Shown here: positions 49,123-49,366 of the stretch, in pieces
Layout: every line of letters starts with the position of its first letter
Numbering within the stretch: position 1 is the stretch's first letter
DNA from: Chitinophagaceae bacterium
GTDB lineage: Bacteria > Bacteroidota > Bacteroidia > Chitinophagales > Chitinophagaceae
DNA: 64,000 nucleotides
Reading direction: 5' to 3'
Assembly: GCA_022843585.1 (NCBI GenBank)
Contig: JALHNJ010000008.1
Location: 62,001-126,000 of the forward strand
Translations under genes and position numbers: made by a program
The notes under the pieces: model-generated
Database searches by the model: none
Seen by the model: the letters and a program-made list of their open reading frames with translations, nothing else
Told to the model about the DNA's origin: nothing

Positions 49123-49320
49123 TTATTTTTCGATTTTGCCGCTGGCCAGGTTCTGCTTGTACACAGCTTTAAGCACTTCACCTCTGCGTCTTACAGAAGG
49201 TTTAATGAAAGCCTGACGTTCACGCAACTGAAGTAATACTTTAGATTTTTCGAATTTCTTCTTGTACTTCTTTAGAGCTTTGTCTATGTTTTCGCAGTCT
49301 TTAGAATCAATAATCAGCAT
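49123..49320 (-). CDS. rpsU: 30S ribosomal protein S21
   Basis: 65 aa. MLIIDSKDCENIDKALKKYK, then the S21 block KKFEKSKVLLQLRERQAFIK and a basic PSVRRRGEVLKAVYKQN. In Bacteroidota, bS21 sits near the 3' end of 16S rRNA and helps hide the anti-Shine-Dalgarno sequence. This is the only start among those I inspected in the window with a strong Shine-Dalgarno sequence (see the next entry), which fits autoregulation by S21. Divergent from ribE. Confidence 0.95.
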   Translation of the reverse strand: MLIIDSKDCENIDKALKKYKKKFEKSKVLLQLRERQAFIKPSVRRRGEVLKAVYKQNLASGKIEK

Positions 49321-49328
49321 AAAATTTT

Positions 49329-49344
49329 ATACCTCCTTCGGTAT
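49329..49344 (-). promoter_or_regulatory. Shine-Dalgarno sequence of rpsU, inside a potential hairpin
   Basis: On the minus strand AAGGAGG (49338-49332), 11 bases before the ATG. The flanks ATACC (49344-49340) and GGTAT (49333-49329) form a 5-bp stem with a GAAGGA loop, so part of the SD would be exposed in the loop and its last two Gs paired. Most other starts here have no SD at all. Confidence 0.8.
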
Positions 49345-49358
49345 TTTTTTTAGGAGTG

Positions 49359-49366
49359 CAAAGATA
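49359..49366 (-). promoter_or_regulatory. -7 element of rpsU
   Basis: CAAAGATA, TATCTTTG on the minus strand. The predicted RNA start gives a leader of about 33 bases that contains the SD hairpin. The -33 match is weak. Confidence 0.6.

Follow-up and report, generated by a model that had tools for sequence, protein, structure and literature searches.

The rpsU leader of this Chitinophagaceae genome raises the question why the gene for ribosomal protein bS21 carries a strong Shine-Dalgarno (SD) sequence in a genome with few SDs, and what the short inverted repeat that includes part of this SD may add to its control. The window is the whole stretch of DNA analysed, 64,000 nucleotides in length. 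We consider it somewhat probable that the leader is a bS21-feedback site in which a hairpin formed with the left arm of the repeat lowers initiation by bS21-replete ribosomes. The SD feedback is already published; what is new here is the left arm. The features of the locus are as follows.

49123..49320, minus strand: rpsU, encoding bS21 of 65 amino acids (open reading frame with a Pfam Ribosomal_S21 match, 3.2e-14).
49321..49354, minus strand: predicted 5′ UTR of about 34 nt, inferred from the position of the promoter box with a start 5 nt past the −7 box.
49329..49339, minus strand: extended SD GAAGGAGGUAU, pairing (one G-U) with 16S 5′-AUACCUCCUUU-3′.
49338-49332, minus strand: AAGGAGG, 11 bases 5′ of the ATG (49320).
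49329..49333, minus strand: right arm of the inverted repeat, GGTAT, forming the 3′ half of the extended SD.
49334..49339, minus strand: predicted hairpin loop GAAGGA, the unpaired 5′ half of the SD.
49340..49344, minus strand: left arm ATACC, letter for letter the AUACC of 16S rRNA (a cis anti-SD).
49359..49366, minus strand: −7 promoter box TATCTTTG, assigned by sequence to the sigma-A type of Bacteroidota.

Read along the minus strand, the order is TATCTTTG-CACTCCTAAAAAAA-ATACC-GAAGGA-GGTAT-AAAATTTT-ATG. The sequence-only reading had placed AAGGAGG 11 bases before the ATG, which is right in coordinates and sequence, and had proposed that ATACC and GGTAT pair with GAAGGA in the loop, a 5-bp hairpin that can indeed form. 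Its leader of about 33 bases fits the predicted 34-nt transcript leader, but the distance from the box TATCTTTG to the ATG is 38 bases. In F. psychrophilum the promoter box TAnnTTTG is located at −12 to −5 (PMC9723704). A search of Rfam around the rpsU leader gave three sub-threshold matches, none of them overlapping the leader. There is one match to S21 in the genome. The encoded bS21 has Tyr at position 54, the residue contacting the 16S tail, and an effect of Y54A has been described (PMC9976891). Among named records, the closest are Chitinophagaceae bacterium IBVUCB2 and a metagenome-assembled genome of Bacteroidia, and both encode an identical bS21. Genome g80 (G313, locus L031) contains two S21 genes, and the leader of the divergent copy has no SD.

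The 16S rRNA of the analysed genome was searched for in the assembly and was not found. All six relatives of the genus with a readable 16S 3′ end share the end GAAUACCUCCUUUUU (in longer form, GGCTGGAATACCTCCTTTTTAG), with an intact anti-SD segment and the matching extension GAATACCTCCTTTTT. Against this tail, taken from the relatives, GAAGGAGGUAU forms an 11-nt extended SD with 11 pairs at −16.5 kcal/mol, below the published limit of −13 kcal/mol. Because the genus tail reads AUACCUCC, the GGTAT arm is itself SD besides being a stem arm, and by this match the UAU of GGUAU is part of the rpsU SD. The base following GGU fits the 16S in all 17 genomes for which both the 16S and an rpsU leader with an SD were read. 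Fourteen of these combine GAAUACC with GGUAU (5 of the genus, 7 other family members and 2 of family f36), and three combine GAACACC with GGUG (2 of f50 and 1 of f26); two further genomes with the 16S read have no rpsU SD. Another covariation of SD and 16S, with Chryseobacterium-type tails, was described by McNutt et al. (PMC9976891).

That relatives keep the SD was borne out in the family. Among the best-scoring S21 matches listed, which gave 232 distinct family leaders, pairing reaches −13 kcal/mol or below in 176 and is weaker than −7 kcal/mol in 24, the genus tail being applied to all 232; AT follows GG[AG]GGT in 175 of the 176 leaders having that motif. These 232 leaders derive from 260 loci, comprising 30 loci and 117 of 120 chosen regions (the other 3 being of the genus), a further 30 loci of the genus and the 80 best loci of another search. 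At class level 68 of 70 leaders were read. The canonical rpsU SD is absent from 10 of 60 genera among the matches listed.

SD strength was also compared over 380 other starts from 464 kb of the 4.49-Mb genome (about 10%), some of which are wrong because the start of each long open frame was set at its first ATG. None of the 380 is as strong as rpsU, the best being greA at −14.0 kcal/mol. Weak SD-like pairing is depleted at the starts of this genome: 26 starts reached −6 kcal/mol or below vs 42 in a mock region, each of 380, and 8 vs 10 reached −8 kcal/mol. At −10 kcal/mol the counts were 5 vs 3 and at −12 kcal/mol 4 vs 0, and a small number of real SDs therefore exist in the genome. The pattern AAGGAGG-N4-11-ATG occurs at 65 places genome-wide vs 77 for the reversed control pattern; among the 30 of 65 with loci examined, greA and a 324-aa frame resemble gene starts, while a 64-aa frame and a 493-aa frame are uncertain as such. 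Of the ribosomal-protein genes, which the sample covers in part, rpsR gave −9.3 kcal/mol, rplI −3.6 kcal/mol and rpsF −2.4 kcal/mol. The claim that the genome otherwise lacks SDs is too strong, since greA and rpsR are among a few other genes with good SDs. The rpsR gene (bS18; L281, minus strand) has a moderate SD, AGTGGAGGCATAATATC-ATG, and an rpsR SD has been described for other Bacteroidia orders (PMC9976891).

The best-pairing start among these 380 belongs to the following gene.

L270:5932-6402, contig C4 of this genome (G000), minus strand: greA (Pfam GreA_GreB), with the SD AAAGGAGGTGAAC-ATG at −14.0 kcal/mol, found by SD scan.

Its leader reads CAAAGGAGGTGAAC-ATG. Among 30 family genera including our own, 11 greA leaders pair at −8 kcal/mol or below, and all 11 at −11.7 kcal/mol or below, as compared with 8 of 380 sampled starts of this genome at −8 kcal/mol or below, greA included; the 30 leaders are those most like the GreA of this genome among 60 genomes searched. 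Judged from these leaders, greA may be a second target of bS21-free ribosomes, and its SD suggests that the target set may be larger than rpsU outside Flavobacteriales. In the collection of papers searched, none was found that treats greA together with Shine-Dalgarno sequences in Bacteroidetes.

Jha et al. 2021 reportedly described autoregulation of bS21 via an extended SD in rpsU, preceding McNutt 2023. In the latter study SD-controlled bS21 feedback was presented together with strong extended rpsU SDs and natural SD/anti-SD covariation, and ribosomes of F. johnsoniae without bS21 favoured rpsU mRNA; about half of the Chitinophagales satisfied the two criteria of those authors, who see in bS21-free ribosomes an unambiguous bacterial example of ribosome specialisation (PMC9976891). 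To read the rpsU SD as bS21 feedback, as the sequence-only reading did, is sound and had already been published there. In the main text of that article the word "hairpin" does not occur, and "secondary structure" occurs twice, in the contexts of general initiation and of a reporter (PMC9976891). Our literature search for the rpsU SD of Chitinophagaceae found no paper, although the wider literature may differ, and a search for rpsU hairpin or SD autoregulation in Bacteroidota gave only a review.

The left arm recurs among relatives. TACC ending 2–5 nt 5′ of the SD core is present, on average, in 16.0 of 50 Chitinophagaceae genera among the matches listed, vs a mean of 1.6 and a maximum of 6 in 300 rounds of shuffled leaders; the eleven remaining permutations of these letters gave 0 to 6.3 of 50 genera. 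It is the commonest four-letter word at that spot, found in 19 of the 50 genera, and 31 of 50 have no member with it, again among the matches listed. One random leader was drawn per genus from 138–139 loci of the 50 genera with a canonical SD, genera being used as the sampling unit because edit-distance clustering merged 159 of 175 leaders into one cluster. In the genus, where leaders were read from 33 of 37 genomes with a match (two leaders being identical over their last 60 nt, and the four other genomes all being small), the arm in the form T[AG]CC is present in 22 of 33. Among species with genomes of at least 2.6 Mb it was found in 22 of 23, despite changing flanks and spacing, and among those of 2.1 Mb or less in 0 of 10; these ten account for all but one of the 11 leaders of the genus without the arm. 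The stem expected to be conserved is thus conserved in only part of the family, in the genera and species just given. In SD-bearing leaders of other families TACC was found at this place in 0 of 12, one of which has CACC beside the promoter box.

Some of the variation among relatives bears on the form of the stem. In a set of 75 leaders chosen for having T[AG]CC, the spacer from arm to SD core is 2 to 5 nt. The first arm base is pairable in 46 of the 75 (A in 41, G in 5) and unpairable in 29, and the shared stem is therefore 4 bp. A hairpin of the same type is found elsewhere, where ATACC-TTTACGGG-GGTAT, with GGGGGTAT, lies upstream of a Pfam Ala_racemase_N gene (L273:10143-10790, minus strand), which we take to be YggS-like; its GGGGG ends 16 nt from the ATG.

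The isolated ATACC-GAAGGA-GGTAT element was predicted to fold at −4.3 kcal/mol, and natural hairpin variants at −3.0 to −4.3 kcal/mol. When the leader of this genome was folded with 40 nt of the gene, the mean pair probability of the ATACC hairpin was 0.58–0.67, beside a rival fold at 0.31–0.41. The best fold of this leader (−5.5 kcal/mol) is this rival, pairing GGUAUAA with UUAUGCU across the start codon (minus strand 49333-49311, most pairs at probability 0.30–0.41), vs −5.3 kcal/mol for the ATACC hairpin. In the T[AG]CC set of 75 leaders, the best fold of 59 contains the hairpin, and over the set its closing pair has a median probability of 0.87. Scrambling TACC in these leaders cut the opening cost of the SD by 0.16–1.0 kcal/mol on average, the native cost exceeding the scrambled one in 42 to 63 of 75 depending on the word. 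The predicted effect of TACC on the opening cost is small beside the SD helix of −16.5 kcal/mol, and the predicted hairpin is weak next to the helix of SD and 16S. Across the 50 genera no family-wide masking of the SD was seen, the opening cost being 3.62 kcal/mol vs 3.56 kcal/mol in shuffles (p = 0.53). On geometric reasoning, a pseudoknot between the 5′ UCC and the hairpin loop was dropped.

Covariation of ATACC and GGTAT, which the sequence-only reading had put forward as a check, was not seen. In 66 windows from 22 genera (61 distinct), one cell changed on both sides and 152 of 500 shuffles scored as high; the alignment was gapless, and loops of other lengths count in it as unpaired. Covariation is hardly detectable here because the right arm is the almost invariant SD sequence. 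The suggestion that the hairpin adds a second control is kept as possible, since the hairpin can form and recurs, but it goes no further, given the lack of covariation, the lack of family-wide masking and the different best fold of the leader itself.

The same results bear on the most serious alternative, that the SD feedback is real and the left arm functionless, an inherited or chance stretch from which a hairpin arises as it would from any ACC near GGU. We regard this as quite plausible, if doubtful. The absent covariation and masking gain agree with it, as do the absence of the arm from most genera and from the ten small-genome species of the genus, a rival fold equally stable in the leader of this genome, and the arm's history: a GreA tree of 30 genera, 21 of them with data, requires at least six state changes, although this tree is poorly resolved, with stars on 7 of its 27 inner branches. 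Such an arm would not explain why TACC occurs at ten times its expected number of genera and as the commonest word there, nor its retention in all but one of the larger-genome species of the genus.

A different fold may be the real lock, either GGUAUAA/UUAUGCU over the start codon or a pairing of UCCU at the 5′ end with AGGA, which we consider improbable. The former belongs to the best fold for each of the four transcript starts assumed, mostly at the pair probabilities given above. The latter joins it if the transcript starts at the fourth base beyond the box, but reaches a probability of 0.13–0.15 and is cut into if the start is 5 nt past the box; moreover, C-rich bases are seen after other −7 boxes too, with CC within positions 3–7 in 16 of 45. 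Leaders of species of the genus with genomes of 1.5–2.1 Mb are shorter by roughly 10 nt (L003, L012, L014, L017, L020; L004-L006, L023) and have CCTCC or CCTC directly after the −7 box, plus AGGAGGTAT or a weakened AGAGGTA. In these small genomes, ACCUCC-AUUAAA-GGAGGU (−9.7 kcal/mol) was rejected as a full SD lock: with transcription starting 5 nt past the −7 box, most of the ACCUCC is outside the predicted RNA.

Direct binding of the hairpin by bS21 or another ribosomal protein, in the manner of classical ribosomal-protein operators, would suit the small size of the hairpin and its place at the start of a gene for a ribosomal protein, but the stem of 4–5 bp with a changing loop and the absence of the hairpin from the 12 SD-bearing leaders of other families make it very unlikely. 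Least credible of all is a role of ATACC-N6-GGTAT at the DNA level, as an operator to which a dimeric regulator would bind to control rpsU or the divergent gene (49419 onwards, presumably riboflavin synthase-like): the repeat is a perfect 5-bp inverted repeat between divergent genes, with arms 11 bp apart centre to centre, and occurs at 9 genome places vs 1 for a control pattern, but the varying spacer changes the loop length in relatives, all four examined of the 8 other places are inside long open frames, and GGTAT is accounted for by pairing with 16S.

We return to the reading we prefer, a bS21-feedback site with a left-arm hairpin. As in Flavobacterium, and here judged from sequence, bS21-bearing ribosomes would keep the 16S tail bound in a pocket and start translation of rpsU mRNA inefficiently. 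On ribosomes short of bS21 the free 16S tail would pair with the 11-nt SD, and more bS21 would be made until the pool is replete. The AUACC of the rpsU mRNA, a copy of the 16S sequence, may fold a weak hairpin in which GGUAU is covered and GAAGGA stays open. Intracellular folding of the leader, and its consequences for translation if any, are our inference. Replete ribosomes require a start region free of structure and would initiate less often in the presence of the hairpin, while the 16S tail, when free, could land on the open GAAGGA and its AUACC displace the cis AUACC stepwise. More tentatively, and rather against expectation, such strand exchange may act as a switch in part of the Chitinophagaceae, with bS21-free ribosomes also serving a wider set of SDs of which greA would be the first candidate; if true, ribosome composition would control a transcription factor in addition to bS21. 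If the left arm works, it offers a simple mutable handle on how bS21-free and replete ribosomes pick mRNA.

Among known systems, the locus resembles the published bS21 autoregulation in its single rpsU, the intact 16S anti-SD of its relatives, a pairing below −13 kcal/mol, Tyr54 and the rank of rpsU as the strongest of the sampled starts. It differs in that the left arm equals the 16S AUACC and may form a weak hairpin, in that the SD ends in GGUAU, fitting a GAAUACC tail, and in that greA and rpsR also have SDs in this genome. In other bacteria, start sites are masked by cis anti-SD hairpins, in which a short stretch complementary to the SD pairs back with it. A short SD complement can likewise fold back on the rpsU SD, but the stem is 4–5 bp, it covers half of the SD, and the intended users of the site would be a special class of ribosomes, those free of bS21. 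The locus fits an extended-SD bS21-feedback leader of known kind to which a lineage-specific cis anti-SD arm, of putative function, has been joined.
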